Positions 10,655 to 49,348 of a stretch of 64,000 nucleotides of DNA are shown piece by piece. The position numbers and the translations under genes were made by a program. The notes under the pieces are model-generated. The model saw nothing but the letters and a program-made list of their open reading frames with translations. It was not told the origin of the DNA and ran no database searches. This DNA comes from an uncultured Bacilli bacterium (GTDB lineage Bacteria > Bacillota_I > Bacilli_A > RF39 > UBA660): assembly GCA_944350345.1 (NCBI GenBank), contig CALVOP010000003.1, positions 24,638 to 88,637 on the forward strand, written 5' to 3'. How positions within the stretch are numbered: the stretch's first letter is position 1; each line of letters begins with the position of its first letter.

Positions 10655-11007
10655 GGGGCTGTTTTGTTTCGACAGAGTGATGATTTTGTTAATAGCAAGT
10701 AGTAGGGATACTATAAATCCAAAAACGTTAAATAAACGGAAAACAAAATAATTTTGCACCTGCTTTTGCCTAATTAAGGTACGCGGTGGCTCTTTCTTAA
10801 CTTTGTTTGCGAGTTAAGGTAAAGGGTTCATAAAAGCAAACTATATCATTTATATGTCTATATTAAATGATGAAATTTATAGACTTAGAAAAACATTGGA
10901 AGTTGGCAATCCATAAATGTTTTTTAAAAATACTAAACCAACTAAACTTGTAGAATATTAATGAAATTGCGCTTTGGACACGAGCTCGATACTCGTCAGC
11001 TCCACCA
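10655..11007 (+). ncRNA. ssrA: tmRNA (transfer-messenger RNA)
   Basis: Rescues stalled ribosomes and tags the unfinished protein. The 5' end GGGGCTGTTTTGTTTCGACA and the 3' end CGTCAGCTCCACCA are the paired tRNA-like ends, with CCA encoded. Length is about 353 bases. The tag frame starts at GGA (10738-10740) and reads GKQNNFAPAFA before TAA. The tag end AFA differs from the common ALAA but matches the kind of tag end seen in mollicutes such as Mesoplasma. It has its own promoter and terminator. Confidence 0.95.
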
Positions 11008-41132: not shown

Positions 41133-41576
41133 ATGAAGAAAAACAGTAAGAAAGGGTTTACTTTAGTAGAATTAATTGCGGTTATTGCAATATTATCTAT
41201 ATTGTTAGTATTGGCATTACCACAAGTACTAGAATTATTTAATGATTCAAGAGAAAGTGCATTTATTACACAAGTTCAATCTATTTATAGAGCAGCTGAA
41301 GAACAATATGTATCTGATCAATTATTACCGAGTGCTAGTTCTACATCAGTTTCATATTGTAAATCTTCTAGTGGTTCTGGAACATCTAGTACTTTAAACA
41401 TAAGTAACGATGATGTTTATTATGATATTGAGTTTAATTCAGAAGGTCAAATAACTAAAATAATAGTAACAGATGGTAAATATTCTTATACTAATAATTC
41501 AAGTAGTGCAATTAAAATAGGCGACATTAAAGATGTAGATGAAGATATCGCCACTATAACTTGTCCTACAGAATAA
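41133..41576 (+). CDS. type IV prepilin-like (ComGC/pseudopilin) protein
   Basis: 147 residues. The basic leader MKKNSKKG is followed by the prepilin cleavage motif G|FTLVELIAVIAILSILLVLALP with Glu5 of the mature chain, so it should be cut by the prepilin peptidase at 60371-61105 and assembled through the GspF-type protein at 58539-60362. The mature part after the helix (NDSRESAFITQVQSIYRAAEEQY) is short and Ser-rich with two cysteines that could pair. Monocistronic here, not in a comG operon. Pilus, pseudopilus or DNA-uptake role cannot be told apart. Confidence 0.85.
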   Translation: MKKNSKKGFTLVELIAVIAILSILLVLALPQVLELFNDSRESAFITQVQSIYRAAEEQYVSDQLLPSASSTSVSYCKSSSGSGTSSTLNISNDDVYYDIEFNSEGQITKIIVTDGKYSYTNNSSSAIKIGDIKDVDEDIATITCPTE

Positions 41577-41865: not shown

Positions 41866-44800
41866 GTGAAAAATAGATTATATTTAATAATTGTTTTAAT
41901 AGTTTTGTGTTTAATTTTAAGTATATGTGGAACATATGCTTGTTTTAGTACAAGAATTGAAAGTACAGAGGGAAAAGTGACATTAGTCACAGATGAACTT
42001 AAGTTAATTTATACTGATACTTTAGGAATGAATGATTTATCAATACAACCAGGTTGGAGTGTGACTAAAACATTTACAGTAGAAAATACAACAAATGAAG
42101 AAAAATATTATAAAATAGTATGGAAAAACTTAGTTAATACTTTTGTAAATATTGATAATTTAACAATAACAATTAATAGCACAAACGGTGGGGGAAAATT
42201 AAGTAAAAGCTCTGTTAAAAGCAGTAGTCTTCCAGGAAATTATGACATAATTTCAAGCGTTGCTATTGCAGGAAAAACTATACAAGAGTATACAGTTACA
42301 TTTGAATATGGAAATACAATTGTGGATCAAAGTGCAGATATGGGTAAAACATTTAGTGGAAGCATAGAAATAGAAGCATTAGAAAGCGAATACACGGAAG
42401 CATATTTGTATGCACAGGTGTTAGAAGATAACCCAAATGTAGAAACAAGGACAGATTTTAGTACAATATTTACAGAGAGTAACAATGGAAACACAATATA
42501 TAAAGCAAGTGGCCAAGACGGAAAAGACACATACTACTTTGCGGGACAAGTAACAAATAATTACGTAAAATTTGCTGATAAGTACTGGAGGATAGTAAGA
42601 ATAAACGAAGATAATAGTGTACGTCTAATATATGCAGGAACAAGCGCAACAGATACAGCAGCATTTATAAGTACAAGTCAAGTATATAACTCAAGCTATA
42701 ATAATAGTGCATATGTAGGATATATGTATACGGCAAGCGAACAATATGGAACAGGAACAAATAGCTCAATAAAAACAACAGTAGATAACTGGTACACAAG
42801 TAACTTGAATAGTTACTCAGGATATATAAATAAGACAGCAATATACTGTAACGATAGAACAGTGGCAAGTGGAACATGGAGTGCAACAGGAAGTACATTC
42901 TACTATGCTGCATATGCAAGATTATATATAAATAAAACACCAACGTTTGTATGTAGTAATGCAAATGACAAATTCACAGCAAGTACAAGTACGGGAAACG
43001 GAAAACTAACATATCCAATAGGACTAATAACAGCAGACGAAATAAGCTACGCAGGTGGATTGTGGGCAACAACTAACTTAAACTATTATATAGCCCAGAA
43101 CGTATCGAGTGGAGCATCGTGGTGGTGGACAATGAGTCCGAGCTACTGGAATGGCAACTACGCTCGCGTGTTCATCGTGGGTGGGTCTTCTTACACTGGC
43201 TACTTGAGCTACGACTGGGTCAGCAACACGTACGGCGTGCGTCCCGTAATTTCTCTGAAATCTTGTGTTCTCGCATCTGGAGGAGATGGAACGGCAAGTG
43301 ATCCATATACAGTAAGTTTGACGGATGAATGTGCTAATGTAGAAAATGAGATACTAGAAGAAAATACAGTAAGAGTAAGTGCAACAACAAATGATACAAG
43401 CATGGCTTCAGTCAATGCACCAAGTTCAGTAATAATAAATAGTGGAAGTTCACATACATTTACACTTACAGTAAAAGACGGATATGAATATGAAAGCGTA
43501 ACAGGATGTAATGGGGTATTTGATACAAACACAAATAAATTAACAGTAAGCAATGTAACGAGTAATACAACATGTCAAGTTAACTTTAAATCAAACAACC
43601 ATACAGTAAATATGAATGTAAGTGGTGGAACAATAAGTCCAACGAGCGCAACAGTGAGTCATGGCTCAAGTAAGACATTTACTGTAACAGCAAGCACAGG
43701 ATATACAACAACAGGAGCAACAGTAAGTTGTACAAATGGAGTAAGTGGAAGTATAAGTGGAAGCACAGTAACAGTAAGTAATGTAACGAGCAATACAACA
43801 TGTACAGTAACATTACCATCAAAGACATATACAGTAAGTGCAACAACAAATGATACAAGTATGGCAACAGTAAATGCCCCTGCATCAGTATCAGTAAATA
43901 ACGGAAGTTCACATACATTTATATTCACAGTAAAAACAGGATATGAGTATGAAAGTGTAAGTGGATGTAATGGGGTATTTGATACAAGCACAAATAAATT
44001 AACAGTAAGTAATGTAATAAGTGATACAACATGTCAGGTAAACTTCAAAGCCAAGACATATACAGTTACTATGAGTGGAAGCGGAGGAACAATAAGTCCA
44101 ACGAGCGCAACAGTGAGTCATGGCTCAAGTAAGACATTTACTGTAACAGCAAGCACAGGATATACAACAACAGGAGCAACAGTAAGTTGTACAAACGGAG
44201 TAAGTGGAAGTATAAGTGGAAGCACAGTAACAGTAAGTAATGTAACAAGCAACACAACATGTCAAGTTAACTTTAAATTAAAGACATATACAGTAAGTGC
44301 AGCACCAAATAGTACAACATATGCAACAGTAAGTGCCCCAAGTTCTGTATCAGTAAGTCATGGGGGAAGTCATACATTCACATTTAGTGTAAAAACAGGA
44401 TACCAATATAGTAGTTTAAGCAATTGTACTGGAGGAAGTTATAATACAAGCACAAATAAATTAACAGTAAGTAATGTAACAAGTAACAGGTCATGTACTG
44501 TAAACTTTAAAGCGCTAAGCCCATTATATGCGCAAGTGTTAGAAGATAATCCAAATGTAAGTACAAGGAGTAGCTTTAGTAGTATATTTACAGCAAGTAA
44601 TAATGGAAACACAATATATAAAGCAAGCGGGCAAAACAATAAAACTACATATTATTTTGCAGGGTCTGTAACAAATAACTATGTAAAATTTGCTAATAAG
44701 TACTGGAGAATAGTAAGAATAAATGAAGATAATAGTGTTCGATTAATATATGCAGGAACAAGTGCAACAGATACAGCTGCATTTATTAGTACGAGCCAAG

Positions 44801-46467
44801 CATATAACTCAAGTTATAATAATAGTGCATATGTGGGATATATGTATACAAAAAGTCAGCAATATGGAACAGGGACGAATAGTCCAATAAAGACAGTATT
44901 AGATAACTGGTACACAAGTAACTTGAATAGTTATTCAGGGTATATCAGTAAGACGGCAATATACTGTAACGATAGGACGGTAGGAAGTGGAAGCTGGAGT
45001 GCAACAGGAAGTACATTCTACTATGCTGCATATACAAGATTAAATACAAATAAAACACCAACATTTGCATGTAGTAATTCTAATGATAGATTTACATCGA
45101 GTACGACAACAGGAAACGGAAAGCTAACATATCCAATAGGACTAATAACAGCAGATGAGATAAGTTACGCAGGGGGATTATACGGAACAAATAACTCAAA
45201 CTATTATATATTCCAGAACGCATCGAGTGGAGCACGTTACTGGTGGACAATGAGTCCGGACCTCTGGAGTAGCCCCAACAGCACCGCTTTCGTGTTCATG
45301 GTGGGTGGGGCTACTCGCACTGGCTACTTGGACAGCAACTACGTCTACGTCACGTACGGCGTGCGTCCCGTAATTTCTCTTAAAGCTTGTGTTCTTGCCT
45401 CTGGAGGAAGCGGAACTGCAAGTGATCCATATACAGTAAGCTTGGCGGATGGGTGTGCTAATGTAGAAAATGAGATATTAGAAGAAAATACAGTAAGAGT
45501 AAGTGCAACAACAAATGATACAAGTATGGCAACAGTAAATGCTCCAAGTTCAGTATCAGTAAGTCATGGAGGAAGCCATAAATTTACATTTAGTGTAAAA
45601 ACAGGATACGAATATAGTAGTTTAAGCAATTGTACAGGAGGAAGTTACAATAAAAATACAAACACATTAACAGTAAGTAATGTGACAAGTAACAGGTCAT
45701 GTATTGTAAACTTTAAAGCAAAAACATATACAATAAGCTTTAATGCTAGAGGAGGAACAGGAGGGCCAACAACTGTAACAAAGACACATGGAGTGACTTT
45801 AACACTACCTACAACAAAACCGACAAGAAGTGGATACACATTTGTAGAGTGGAATACGAAATCAGATGGAACAGGTACAGCATATGCCCCAGGAGCATCA
45901 TATACAGGAAATGCAAATGCGACATTATATGCAAGATGGTTAGGGGCAAATACTTATACAGTACAAGCAACAAGTACAAATGCAGGGTGGTATGATAAAT
46001 GGACAAGTGACTGGTATAATAACTATTACGCAGCGGATCATGAAAGAGTTGGAATGTCATCAACAGGAATACCATATGCAATAAATATATTATTTGATCT
46101 CGAACCATACAAGAATAAAGAGATAACAAAAATACTATTATATATATATGTAATAGATGAAGCAACATGGCAATTTAGTATAGATCATAAATATAATAAC
46201 ACAGCGACAGGCAATTATAAGTCACAAGCGTGGGCAACAGTAGGATATAATTATAGTGGAGTAGGATCTACAAAAAGGAAGTATGTATATAGAAGTGACA
46301 CAGTAGAAGGATGGAATGCGATAGATTTAACGGAATATGGATTACCAGATTATGGATACGTACTAGGCCCATATAGTTCAAATGTAACAAACTACTGGAG
46401 AATAAGTAGAACAGCAAGTAGTGGAGGGAAACCATACTTAGTTATAACAGTAAAAGAAGAAGTATAA
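41866..46467 (+). CDS. giant multidomain surface protein with two variable lectin-like domains
   Basis: 1533 residues, GTG start with GTAGGTG upstream. Order: signal or anchor helix (5-25); TasA/camelysin-like domain (about 28-175); first lectin-like domain (about 183-480), beginning YAQVLEDNPNV and closing YGVRPVISLKSC; five beta modules of about 75 residues (502-884), each with two cysteines; second lectin-like domain (about 886-1190); a sixth module; a Listeria-Bacteroides (InlB B-type) repeat (FNARGGTGGPTTVTKTHG ... LYARW); and a unique 160-residue end. No sorting signal. The two lectin-like domains resemble the DUF6273/formylglycine-enzyme-like C-type-lectin fold used as target by diversity-generating retroelements; each contains a G+C-rich variable cassette listed separately. 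Probably an adhesin binding changing ligands (inference). Confidence 0.85.
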   Translation: MKNRLYLIIVLIVLCLILSICGTYACFSTRIESTEGKVTLVTDELKLIYTDTLGMNDLSIQPGWSVTKTFTVENTTNEEKYYKIVWKNLVNTFVNIDNLTITINSTNGGGKLSKSSVKSSSLPGNYDIISSVAIAGKTIQEYTVTFEYGNTIVDQSADMGKTFSGSIEIEALESEYTEAYLYAQVLEDNPNVETRTDFSTIFTESNNGNTIYKASGQDGKDTYYFAGQVTNNYVKFADKYWRIVRINEDNSVRLIYAGTSATDTAAFISTSQVYNSSYNNSAYVGYMYTASEQYGTGTNSSIKTTVDNWYTSNLNSYSGYINKTAIYCNDRTVASGTWSATGSTFYYAAYARLYINKTPTFVCSNANDKFTASTSTGNGKLTYPIGLITADEISYAGGLWATTNLNYYIAQNVSSGASWWWTMSPSYWNGNYARVFIVGGSSYTGYLSYDWVSNTYGVRPVISLKSCVLASGGDGTASDPYTVSLTDECANVENEILEENTVRVSATTNDTSMASVNAPSSVIINSGSSHTFTLTVKDGYEYESVTGCNGVFDTNTNKLTVSNVTSNTTCQVNFKSNNHTVNMNVSGGTISPTSATVSHGSSKTFTVTASTGYTTTGATVSCTNGVSGSISGSTVTVSNVTSNTTCTVTLPSKTYTVSATTNDTSMATVNAPASVSVNNGSSHTFIFTVKTGYEYESVSGCNGVFDTSTNKLTVSNVISDTTCQVNFKAKTYTVTMSGSGGTISPTSATVSHGSSKTFTVTASTGYTTTGATVSCTNGVSGSISGSTVTVSNVTSNTTCQVNFKLKTYTVSAAPNSTTYATVSAPSSVSVSHGGSHTFTFSVKTGYQYSSLSNCTGGSYNTSTNKLTVSNVTSNRSCTVNFKALSPLYAQVLEDNPNVSTRSSFSSIFTASNNGNTIYKASGQNNKTTYYFAGSVTNNYVKFANKYWRIVRINEDNSVRLIYAGTSATDTAAFISTSQAYNSSYNNSAYVGYMYTKSQQYGTGTNSPIKTVLDNWYTSNLNSYSGYISKTAIYCNDRTVGSGSWSATGSTFYYAAYTRLNTNKTPTFACSNSNDRFTSSTTTGNGKLTYPIGLITADEISYAGGLYGTNNSNYYIFQNASSGARYWWTMSPDLWSSPNSTAFVFMVGGATRTGYLDSNYVYVTYGVRPVISLKACVLASGGSGTASDPYTVSLADGCANVENEILEENTVRVSATTNDTSMATVNAPSSVSVSHGGSHKFTFSVKTGYEYSSLSNCTGGSYNKNTNTLTVSNVTSNRSCIVNFKAKTYTISFNARGGTGGPTTVTKTHGVTLTLPTTKPTRSGYTFVEWNTKSDGTGTAYAPGASYTGNANATLYARWLGANTYTVQATSTNAGWYDKWTSDWYNNYYAADHERVGMSSTGIPYAINILFDLEPYKNKEITKILLYIYVIDEATWQFSIDHKYNNTATGNYKSQAWATVGYNYSGVGSTKRKYVYRSDTVEGWNAIDLTEYGLPDYGYVLGPYSSNVTNYWRISRTASSGGKPYLVITVKEEV
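43093..43256 (+). other. putative DGR variable repeat 1 (VR1)
   Basis: Codons 410-463 of the giant protein. By hand count 64 of 120 bases at 43141-43260 are G or C, against 22 of 60 at 42961-43020. It encodes WWTMSP, a variable stretch, VGG, TGYL and TYGVRPVISL. Variable codons are mainly of the NNC and NCT type. The 3' block 43228-43256 is identical to the end of VR2. Template repeat and reverse transcriptase are not in the window. Confidence 0.65.
43627..44262 (+). repeat. near-identical internal repeat pair in the giant protein gene
   Basis: 43627-43803 and 44086-44262 (offset 459 bases) are identical over roughly the first 110 bases and differ at only a few positions after. They encode the second and fourth beta modules (SPTSATVSHGSSKTFTVTAS). 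Such identity points to recent duplication or gene conversion and could let modules be lost or gained by recombination. Confidence 0.8.
45211..45380 (+). other. putative DGR variable repeat 2 (VR2)
   Basis: From codon 1116 of the giant protein. 70 of 120 bases at 45241-45360 are G or C. Same frame and fixed residues as VR1 but different at 17 aligned codons and two codons longer. All differences change the amino acid; 13 keep the third base. The 29-base end (45352-45380) is identical to that of VR1, as expected for the site where mutagenic homing starts. Confidence 0.65.
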
Positions 46468-46609: not shown

Positions 46610-46728
46610 TACTTGGGTTGTCTTATATCATGATTATTTTATGATAGCTTATTTGACACAAAGAAGTAAGTAAATTAATGTCCCAGATAATTTATTAGAT
46701 TTTTATGAAGTCACGGGCAACCCAAGTA
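46610..46728. other. 119-base element bounded by a 14-bp inverted repeat
   Basis: The 420-base gap after the giant gene holds no plausible gene. Within it, TACTTGGGTTGTCT (46610-46623) pairs with GGGCAACCCAAGTA (46715-46728): 14 pairs, two of them G-T. An inner hairpin (TATCAT ... ATGATA) lies just inside the 5' arm. It is either a structured RNA with a long closing stem or a small inverted-repeat mobile element; there is no T run after it and no transposase. Confidence 0.55.
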
Positions 46729-46886: not shown

Positions 46887-47855
46887 AAAGCGTATAGTTT
46901 AATAAATAATATAACAAGTAGCGAAATAAATAATGTAAGTATAAGAAGCAAACATAGTACAATAATTACAGCATGTAATAATGGAAACACAATATATAAA
47001 GCAAGCGGGCAAAACGGTAAAACAACATATTATTTTGCGGGAACTGTTACAAATAACTATGTAAAATTTGCTAATAAGTACTGGAGAATAGTAAGAATAA
47101 ACGAAGATAATAGTGTACGTTTAATATACGCAGGGACAAGTGCAACAGATACAGCAGGTTTTATAAGACTAGCCGCAGAATACAACACCAATTATAAGAA
47201 TAGTTCGTATGTGGGATATATGTATACTGTAGGGGAACAACATGGAACAAGTACAAATAGTAATGTAAAAGCTATAGTAGATAATTGGTATGTAAGTAAT
47301 CTAAATAGTTATGATAATTATATAAGTAAAACTGCAATATATTGTAATGACAGAACAGTAACAGAAGGTAGTTGGTTCGCAACTGGTTCAGAAGAAATGT
47401 TATATAGTGCGCACACAAGGTTTGATAAATATGCACAACCATCATATGTATGCAGCAATGCAAGTGATAGGTTTACAGTAAGTACGAGCACGGGTAATGG
47501 AAAACTAACGTATCCAATTGGATTAATAACTGCAGATGAGGCATATTATGCTGGTGGCGGATTTTACAACAGGAATTCTAATTATTATTTAGTTCAAAAT
47601 GCTTTAAATGCAGAGGCATCATGGTGGACAATGACACCGAATAATTATTGGACACAAGGTAGCGGAGCAGGCGTATTTTATATAGGAGTATCTGAAATTG
47701 GAACTATAAGGGATGCGGGTGTATATCTTGATTATTTTTCAGTTAGACCTGTAATTTCGCTTAAATCATGTGTGACGGTATCTGGAGGAAATGGAACGGC
47801 AAGCAACCCATATACAGTAAATATTACTACTGCATGTTCAAATAGTGAAAATTAA
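46887..47855 (+). pseudogene. decayed copy of the lectin-like domain of the giant protein
   Basis: An open stretch without a start codon at its beginning (stop at 46884-46886). From about 46930 it aligns with the giant protein: NNGNTIYKASGQNGKTTYYF, KYWRIVRINEDNSVRLIYAG, then WWTMTPNNYWTQ and SVRPVISLKSC, ending at 47855 after NPYTV. The first 40 residues are divergent and no signal peptide remains. Unlike the two intact copies, its WWTM-to-VRP segment is AT-rich and shows no G+C-rich cassette. A GTG at 47211 could start a 214-residue product but has no good binding site. Confidence 0.7.
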
Positions 47856-47915: not shown

Positions 47916-48226
47916 CATTAAATTAAATTTTGGGACTATTTTAATAAAAGGGAATTTTTTTGCTTGTTTCAACAAAGCAACCAAAATGTTAACAACGCTA
48001 ACGTGTTTAACGTAAGTGATCACTAGCATTAGAAATTTGAACAATGGCTAATTTAACAACACGAATAAAATGTGTCCTATAATATTCTTTTAATGAATAT
48101 CAAATTTATTACAACAATTATGGTACGATAAATTTTAATAAAATAAGTGAAGTTTTATATGAAAACTATGAGAAATAAAACATGTAATTGTCAATACTAA
48201 TATCAAAACTAAAAATTTGTTAAAGT

Positions 48227-48352: not shown

Positions 48353-49348
48353 ATGATTGGAGATAGACAAAAAAATATCTTGAAATCTATTGTTGAAGAG
48401 TACATTAAAACTGCTAGACCAGTTGGATCTAAAAGTTTATGTAAGAAGTTTAAGTGTTCTAGTGCTACTATTAGAAATGATATGCTTAATTTGGAGGAAC
48501 TAGGGTACTTGGAAAAACAACATATCTCTTCTGGACGTATACCTTCTGAAAAGGGTTATAGATACTATGTAGACTATTTGATGGAACCAAAGAAAATAAG
48601 TGGCGAAGATATGTTAAAGCTTCAAACTATATTTTCTAATAATGAACTTAATTTGAGTTCTGCCATTGAAAAGAGTCTTGAAATTATTAGTGATATTACA
48701 AATTACACGTCTGTTGTACTTGGTAAAGCTTCAAGTGATAATAATTTACAAAAAGTTGAACTTATACCAATTACTGAAGAAACTCTTGTTGCAATTGTTA
48801 TTACTGATAAAGGTATTGTTGAAAATAAACAAGTTAATTTATCTGAACGAGTTGATATGGGTGAAATTACTAAAACAAGTGAAATACTTAATAAAATGCT
48901 TGTTGGAACTCCTATTGATGAAGTAAGTAGTAAACTTGAATTTGAGATTAAACCTATTATTGGTAACTATGTTAAGAATTACGAAGTTTTATATAATGCA
49001 TTTTATGAAGCATTCAGTAATTTTGCAACTAAAGAATCTGTTAAATGGCGTGGTAAAGCTAATATATTAAAACAACCGGAATTTTCTAATGTCGACGATG
49101 TTAAAAACATTGTAAGTAAATTTGAAAGCAAAGAAGTAGTGAATAAAATTGAAGGTACAGACGATGAGGTTAAGATATATATTGGCAAAGAAAGTGAACT
49201 TGATGATAATGTTACTGTAATTAAAACTAAAATTAGACTTAATGGTGAAGATATGTCTATTGCTGTTATTGGACCTAAAAGGATGGAATACGGTAAAGTC
49301 GTAACAATGCTAGAGTATATTAAAGACAACTTAGAGAAGAAAGGATAG
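48353..49348 (+). CDS. hrcA: heat-inducible transcription repressor HrcA
   Basis: 331 residues; represses its own operon through CIRCE. Winged helix at the start (RQKNILKSIVEEYIKTARPVGSKSL, SSATIRNDMLNLEELGYLEKQH), then GRIPSEKGYRYYVDYLM and the long C-terminal dimer domain ending in IAVIGPKRMEYGKVV. AGGGGAGAG precedes the ATG. Codon use switches here to T/G-rich, in contrast to plus-strand genes further left. Confidence 0.97.
   Translation: MIGDRQKNILKSIVEEYIKTARPVGSKSLCKKFKCSSATIRNDMLNLEELGYLEKQHISSGRIPSEKGYRYYVDYLMEPKKISGEDMLKLQTIFSNNELNLSSAIEKSLEIISDITNYTSVVLGKASSDNNLQKVELIPITEETLVAIVITDKGIVENKQVNLSERVDMGEITKTSEILNKMLVGTPIDEVSSKLEFEIKPIIGNYVKNYEVLYNAFYEAFSNFATKESVKWRGKANILKQPEFSNVDDVKNIVSKFESKEVVNKIEGTDDEVKIYIGKESELDDNVTVIKTKIRLNGEDMSIAVIGPKRMEYGKVVTMLEYIKDNLEKKG

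Follow-up and report, generated by a model that had tools for sequence, protein, structure and literature searches.

The window analyzed here is the whole of a 64,000-nucleotide stretch from contig 3 (CALVOP010000003.1) of the draft genome of an uncultured Bacilli bacterium (GTDB lineage RF39; UBA660), and our subject is one of its genes, the target gene, in which two short cassettes are hypervariable. We are highly confident that these cassettes are 2 of 13 variable repeats (VRs) in the genome, whose likely writer is a diversity-generating retroelement (DGR) that probably acted in trans and used several templates; the reverse transcriptase (RT) was not found in the draft. Adenine-specific mutagenic retrohoming is described for the DGR of Bordetella phage BPP-1 (PMC12875486). 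The genome, G000, is an 898-kb draft in 33 contigs, 90% complete, and was compared within its genus (six genomes, G000 to G005, of which G001, G002, G003 and G005 are 89 to 95% complete).

Variable repeats of the target gene and the templates of a congener

The initial annotation, made from the letters of the window, had singled out 43093-43256 and 45211-45380 as G+C-rich, and the counts agree with it. Against 28.7% G+C in the window, 35.5% in the target gene and 36 to 37% in three flank stretches, the cassettes hold 55.5% and 56.5% overall, and 57.5% and 60.8% in their richest 120-bp windows, respectively. Among 6388 such windows taken at a step of 10, only 18 reach at least 53%, every one of them within or overlapping the two cassettes.

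We compared the two VRs over their cores, the parts homologous to the templates described below (43132-43256 and 45250-45380). Seventeen aligned codons differ, none of them synonymously, and the third base is kept in 15 of the 17, the exceptions being ATC/ATG and TGG/TAC. The annotation had also counted 17 differing codons, all amino acid changing. This holds for the core, but four further nonsynonymous differences lie upstream of 43132 (GCC/TTC, GTA/GCA, TCG/CGT and TGG/TAC), and one synonymous difference (CTG/CTT) stands at, and just past, the end of the cassette as first drawn. Its lower count of codons with a kept third base (13 of 17) goes back to the longer stretch and to the placement of the indel. 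VR2 is longer by two codons, as had been stated, and both VRs end in one shared block, which measures 30 bases rather than 29. This block would stand in the place of an initiation-of-mutagenic-homing site; most of it is present in the templates of the congener G004, followed by divergence.

A complete DGR was found in G004. Across the six genomes, RVT_1 matches number two in G004 and one in G005. On contig 63 of G004, the VR-bearing end of a target gene is followed in turn by three tandem A-A-C-rich template repeats (TR1 to TR3) with similar leaders and tails, bAvd, an RT gene, a MutS_I-like gene and ecfA. The RT contains the motifs IGNMTSQ and YMDD, and the SQ motif is given as a mark of DGR RTs in a survey (PMC3521204). 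In Pfam, RVT_1 and MutS_I scored above their cut-offs and bAvd, at 35.5 bits, below its cut-off of 40; the PHROG families at the locus are RT and "Avd protein of DGR," and Rfam returned zero matches there. The VR of this locus differs from TR1 at 18 of 35 adenines and at 0 of 91 other bases (P = 1.6e-12). By published criteria the locus is a DGR: RT, Avd, template and VR stand together, and the mismatches are limited to adenines. When A-A-C-rich stretches (at least 9 A-A-C per 100 bases) were sought about 1.5 kb to either side of the RT, G004 had three; among 30 loci of the family, 12 had one and none had more.

PF05635, tried as the Avd model, proved to be the wrong one and matched nowhere, controls included; the bAvd protein itself was used as the query instead. 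The second RT of G004 (L059, G004:C28, positions 1322-2578), which has a small open reading frame (ORF) upstream, gave RT_VI as its best PADLOC model (E = 2.4e-55), which we take to be a retron type, and as a retron-like enzyme it was not accepted as a DGR RT. The G005 RT (L025, G005:C5, 1171-3111; 646 aa) looks, by reading, like the protein of a group II intron, and was likewise not taken as a DGR RT.

Compared with TR2 of G004, VR1 differs at 16 of 37 adenines and 7 of 89 other bases (P = 1.1e-5) and VR2 at 20 of 41 adenines and 10 of 91 other bases (P = 6.8e-6); in all, 11 of the 13 G000 VRs show an adenine bias against TR2 at P < 0.005. Since the mismatches of the G004 VR are limited to template adenines, the window cassettes are, as judged from their sequence, DGR-type VRs, which is what the annotation had proposed from the codon pattern. 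It had envisaged a DGR with two targets in one protein; what we found instead is a multi-gene repertoire of 13 cassettes that points to several templates.

The number of codons between TGG and GCT in the VRs is 4, 5 or 6, each class with its own fixed codons, and these length and fixed-codon classes recur in G000 and G001. From them we infer that several templates lie behind the G000 cassettes and that at least three were once used. The templates of G004 also differ in the number of TGG-to-GCT codons and in fixed codons, reading GAT TGG, AAC AAC and TGG AAC at one site. Several templates would account for the extra codons of VR2 and for one TGG/TAC pair, and would explain most of the third-base and length differences that the annotation had left over. 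TCG/CGT and the other TGG/TAC pair lie upstream of the template start, and ATC/ATG is a plain exception that this account does not cover.

Thirteen cassettes, their domains and the timing of writing

A search of G000 recovered 13 full cassettes and a partial 14th match, the third copy of the domain in the window, which is excluded from the VR counts. All 13 read as the ends of similar domains, and the alternation of fixed blocks with variable sites first described for the two window cassettes recurs across them as NNC/NNT sites between fixed G+C-rich blocks. Nine VRs were classed as fresh, namely those left after removal of C8, C17, C16a and C2c; of their 145 variable codons, 126 have C and 14 have T as the third base (in the same analysis, locus L116, whose RT was not read by the pattern, was scored as a miss). 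In public homologs (18 close sequences, hand-chosen among the 120 matches listed out of 5158), columns within the VRs carry 1.67 bits and those outside 0.52; when the 40 most variable columns are taken, 29 fall inside VRs. A widespread two-domain relative of 813 to 814 aa (P0048 to P0090; about 47% identity) is nearly invariant, the VR position included. Its 814-aa homologs were set aside as a population test: 41 were aligned, and the other 40 match the first at 96% identity or more and are thus static.

The target protein contains two DUF6273-type domains, each ended by a VR, a Listeria-Bacteroides repeat domain (PF09479) and, by reading, a hydrophobic segment at its N terminus. The domain alignment comprised 12 copies of usable length and the third window copy. 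PF19789 (DUF6273) matched 12 of 13 domain copies at E ≤ 1, near the cut-off (the first member scored 23.1 bits versus a cut-off of 23.5), and precomputed PF19789 annotation is present on part of the homologs. An AlphaFold2 model was obtained with an alignment of 33 homologs for the homolog P0001, not for the window protein, and a second structure aligner found it to resemble C-type lectins at modest scores. Foldseek with the whole P0001 model returned nothing from the PDB at E ≤ 0.001 and seven matches among viral models, some of them named DUF6273; a profile search of solved sequences gave a single chance-level row (E = 0.14). At such modest scores, the cassettes end a domain with a predicted C-type-lectin-like fold. 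An earlier AlphaFold2 model, from 13 close domain copies, had a mean predicted local distance difference test score of 32 and was discarded.

Freshness was assessed on G000 rows only, as some rows of G001, G002 and G005 are static or misaligned copies. Five VR copies were left out of both the template-mismatch and the freshness comparisons: one G005 copy with no recognizable end, and two from G001 and two from G005 that could not be anchored. Of 180 third bases in the fixed codons of the nine fresh VRs, 7 are off consensus, and four of the seven are one GGC variant that probably stems from a second template; for comparison, the third-base divergence of ecfA1 is 7.4% for G003 and 24% for G005. 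Between fresh paralogs, the flanking sequences diverge by about 15% (36 pairs). For the pair C2b/C10a, 168 bp of the upstream flank are identical, and downstream, counted from the shared 3' block, the first 83 bp contain one mismatch, with near identity over about 100 bp and divergence thereafter. The VRs of this pair are different throughout (54% of the A-columns differ), so that a cassette was replaced between unchanged flanks. Together with the nine fresh VRs, these flanks argue that writing was recent. Two VRs are old, with 21 and 23 of 87 non-A changes, of which 16 and 17 are G/C to A/T. The target gene also shares an identical tract of 561 bp with another G000 target gene (C3a/C2c; G000:C2), which we read as copied by recombination. 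From this tract and the C2b/C10a replacement, both cassette rewriting and recombination between paralogs seem to occur.

We propose that a complex of bAvd and RT copied template RNA and misread its adenines. The complementary DNA would have taken the place of domain ends in proteins that are probably exported, the domains being DUF6273-type and predicted to be lectin-like; each protein would thereby have received a different binding face, and finished cassettes may then have moved from gene to gene by recombination between paralogs.

The coordinates of the window features are collected in Table 1. The third DUF6273-type copy bears an A+T-rich version of the VR, of which the cassette search matches only part. 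Directly before this copy lies an element with inverted ends (TACTTGGGTTG ... CAACCCAAGTA; 46610-46728), seen by eye and not listed by the repeat finder. A small gene for a pilin-like product with a methylation motif at its N terminus (41133-41576) is located directly upstream of the target gene, and a transfer-messenger RNA gene (10655-11007) is the sole Rfam match in the window.

Table 1. Coordinates of the target gene, its repeats and neighboring features in the window
Feature	Position	Strand	Basis or remark
Target gene	41866..46467	+	ORF, 1533 aa
561-bp tract identical to another G000 target gene	42658..43218	+	ends inside VR1
VR1, core homologous to G004 templates	43132..43257	+	template alignment
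Shared 3' end of VR1	43227..43256	+	30 bases identical to VR2 end
VR2, two codons longer	45250..45381	+	template alignment
Shared 3' end of VR2	45351..45380	+	30 bases identical to VR1 end
Third DUF6273-type copy, N-terminally short	46887..47855 stop-to-stop; 47211-47855 from first listed start	+	ORF
Decayed template repeat with 5' leader and 3' tail, between third copy and hrcA	47931..48190	+	match to TR2
hrcA, beside decayed template	48353..49348	+	landmark gene

The missing reverse transcriptase and its probable former site

Several observations weigh against a DGR as the writer of the cassettes. Searches of the G000 draft gave neither an RVT_1 match nor any relative of the G004 RT at E ≤ 0.001, and they found no MutS_I-like gene and, with the bAvd protein as the query, no bAvd. 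The assembly yielded no intact template and no further template at E ≤ 0.001. The genome search that the annotation had proposed, for an RT beside an A-rich near-copy of the cassettes, thus ended with a decayed template only (Table 1). In a draft of 33 contigs this neither establishes nor excludes the case that the annotation had named as refuting, a closed genome devoid of both RT and template. Moreover, the window VRs were compared with the templates of a congener and not with their own, and their non-adenine mismatches are not zero, being higher for TR1 and TR3 than for TR2. Where VR1 reads TCT TCT and VR2 GCT ACT, the differing bases are not adenine in the G004 templates, which leave them unexplained. 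The old VRs C8 and C17 show no significant adenine bias against any of the three G004 templates, and the RNA tail behind the template has no special fold (z = 0.06). Because no RT was found in the 90%-complete draft, G000 as assembled is not classed as holding a working DGR. Ordinary cassette variation, that is, gene conversion and positive selection on a gene family, would fit the 561-bp tract, the presence of 13 cassettes in paralogous genes and the failure to find an RT in the assembly. However, conversion leaves unexplained the confinement of variation to adenines in G004, with 0 of 91 other bases changed, as well as the C-ending variable codons and the template-like relic in the window, and we regard this explanation as very improbable.

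The ecfA ortholog is present in G000, with a VR gene upstream, and its site matches a 2.1-kb query of the G004 core over the last 64 bp only (91% identity), where the MutS_I-like gene has its final codons and ecfA its leader. In the remnant search, 40 of 235 candidates were scored; a further 84 short matches, with E values of 7e-5 or weaker, we attribute to chance, the DNA being A+T-rich. The ecfA sites of G003 and G005 hold similar short remnants, and G002 retains a broken MutS_I-like gene and an 18-residue RT trace (E = 0.02). Neither an intact DGR-type RT nor bAvd was found in G001, G002, G003 or G005; the only close ecfA1 of G001 (61%) sits on a small contig with no remnant. Nature thus provides a series of states within the genus: G004 is complete and has three templates, the core of G002 is decayed, and G000, G003 and G005 keep short remnants only. 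As regards one shared loss versus several at ecfA, the remnants are short and their left flanks unlike.

The order bAvd, RT, MutS_I and ecfA is repeated in two other genera (G081 and G208; 2 of 30 loci), so the place before ecfA is probably the ancestral DGR site. Of 291 genomes drawn from the family, 140 have relatives of the RT at E ≤ 0.001, other RT kinds included (that of G005 at 1e-6), and a bAvd match accompanies all of the best 30 RT loci. Viral contigs gave two distant relatives of the G004 RT (29%) and no close ones. At L092 and L093, in two other genera, the core lies before ecfA, but no A-A-C-rich template was seen upstream in the stretch read; their templates may act from elsewhere. 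L210 (G005:C15, 1415-1819) is an open MutS_I-like gene, 47% identical to that of G004, behind a VR target and with no RT adjoining, and may represent another former DGR locus of the genus.

The decayed template in the window is 70% identical to TR2 over 256 nt and scores 157, versus at most 28 in 200 single-base shuffles. Changes affect 12 of 89 adenines and 66 of 167 other bases, with 50 from G/C to A/T and 13 in reverse, so that it has eroded in the reverse of the VR pattern, adenines being retained and other bases lost. No template relic was seen upstream of hrcA in G001, G003 or G005.

Freshness of the VRs argues that the engine was present until recently, and its absence from five of the six genomes of the genus argues for loss; with a smallest G000 contig of 2532 bp, absence from the assembly is no proof of it. 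We slightly favor recent loss over an engine in the unassembled part. We give even chances to recent DGR writing followed by loss of the RT and templates, after which variation would come from cassette recombination and neutral decay only. Consistent with this are the 64-bp remnant in G000, the short remnants in G003 and G005, the decayed core of G002, the decay of the sole template found in G000, the tract that ends inside a VR and the two old VRs. It is harder to reconcile with nine VRs as fresh as 7 of 180 third bases next to the divergence of ecfA1, and a draft of this completeness could lack a short RT contig bounded by repeats. The same freshness, the locally identical flanks around the different VRs of C2b/C10a, the frequency of DGR-type RT loci in the family and the five G000 contigs that end within target genes would fit an active DGR at an unassembled site that still writes in trans. 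This falls a little short of even probability, as repeated assembly failure is hard to invoke for G001, G002, G003 and G005, which likewise have no intact DGR-type RT or bAvd, and no further template turned up in G000.

Horizontal exchange may also be involved. HrcA is 98 to 99% identical among G000, G001, G003 and G005, whereas ecfA1 is 61% (G001), 96% (G003) and 91% (G005) identical to that of G000, which suggests gene exchange, uneven rates or, in G001, a foreign contig. In addition, a fresh VR of G002 has fixed codons of the G000 type and not of the G004 type, though G002 is nearest to G004 by ecfA1. Target genes that were already diversified may in addition have been imported from congeners with a DGR; alone, such import would yield neither 13 copies nor different VRs between locally identical flanks, and we consider it unlikely. 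Returning to DGR writing followed by loss, we tentatively suggest that the RT was shed after filling a lectin-like library of 13 domains, whose finished cassettes are now recombined, and that this repertoire, somatic in type, may outlive its engine and be traded among congeners.

Comparison with known systems

The DGR is a known kind of system, here in a little-studied lineage, and the notable part is the multi-template, 13-cassette repertoire without its engine. DUF6273 DGR targets (PMC11792537), leftover targets without a core (PMC4891356) and a MutS_I accessory (PMC10053308) are already in print. No report of DGRs in this lineage was found among the papers listed from the open-licence literature searched, which is a weak negative. 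Surveys give several VRs for 271 of 948 nonredundant DGRs, 216 of the 271 having one TR (PMC6642488, PMC3521204), so that DGRs with several TRs are in print as well. In G004, the MutS_I-like gene that follows the RT is consistent with the known MSL accessory protein of DGRs (PF01624; PMC10053308); G000, in contrast, keeps only the last codons of this gene.

In Treponema denticola (PMC4891356), strain ATCC35405 combines a single RT and a single template with seven target genes, some isolates without the core keep leftover targets, and several template variants occur in metagenomes. The present system shares the dispersed targets and the leftover targets without a core; unlike the isolates considered, with one template each, G004 has three tandem templates and G000 has 13 cassettes and a decayed template. 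Faecalibacterium prophage DGRs also have variable regions at the C terminus of DUF6273 domains, but they are phage borne, whereas the loci here lie beside the housekeeping genes ecfA and hrcA (PMC11792537). The DGRs of Thiohalocapsa PB-PSB1 are similar in their incomplete loci and remote targets, and in-trans diversification has been explored for them; there, unlike here, the targets are putative conflict-system sensors of a multicellular bacterium with RTs in its genome (PMC10907252).

Our results add, for a family of Bacilli with small genomes, a DGR lineage that is chromosomal and has several templates, and they open the question of the fate of a hypervariable repertoire after loss of its mutator, including whether finished cassettes are still shuffled. 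The BPP-1 DGR consists of bRT and Avd with a lectin-fold target, its one TR and one VR lying together in the phage. Here, in contrast, three TRs are present in G004 and 13 cassettes in G000.
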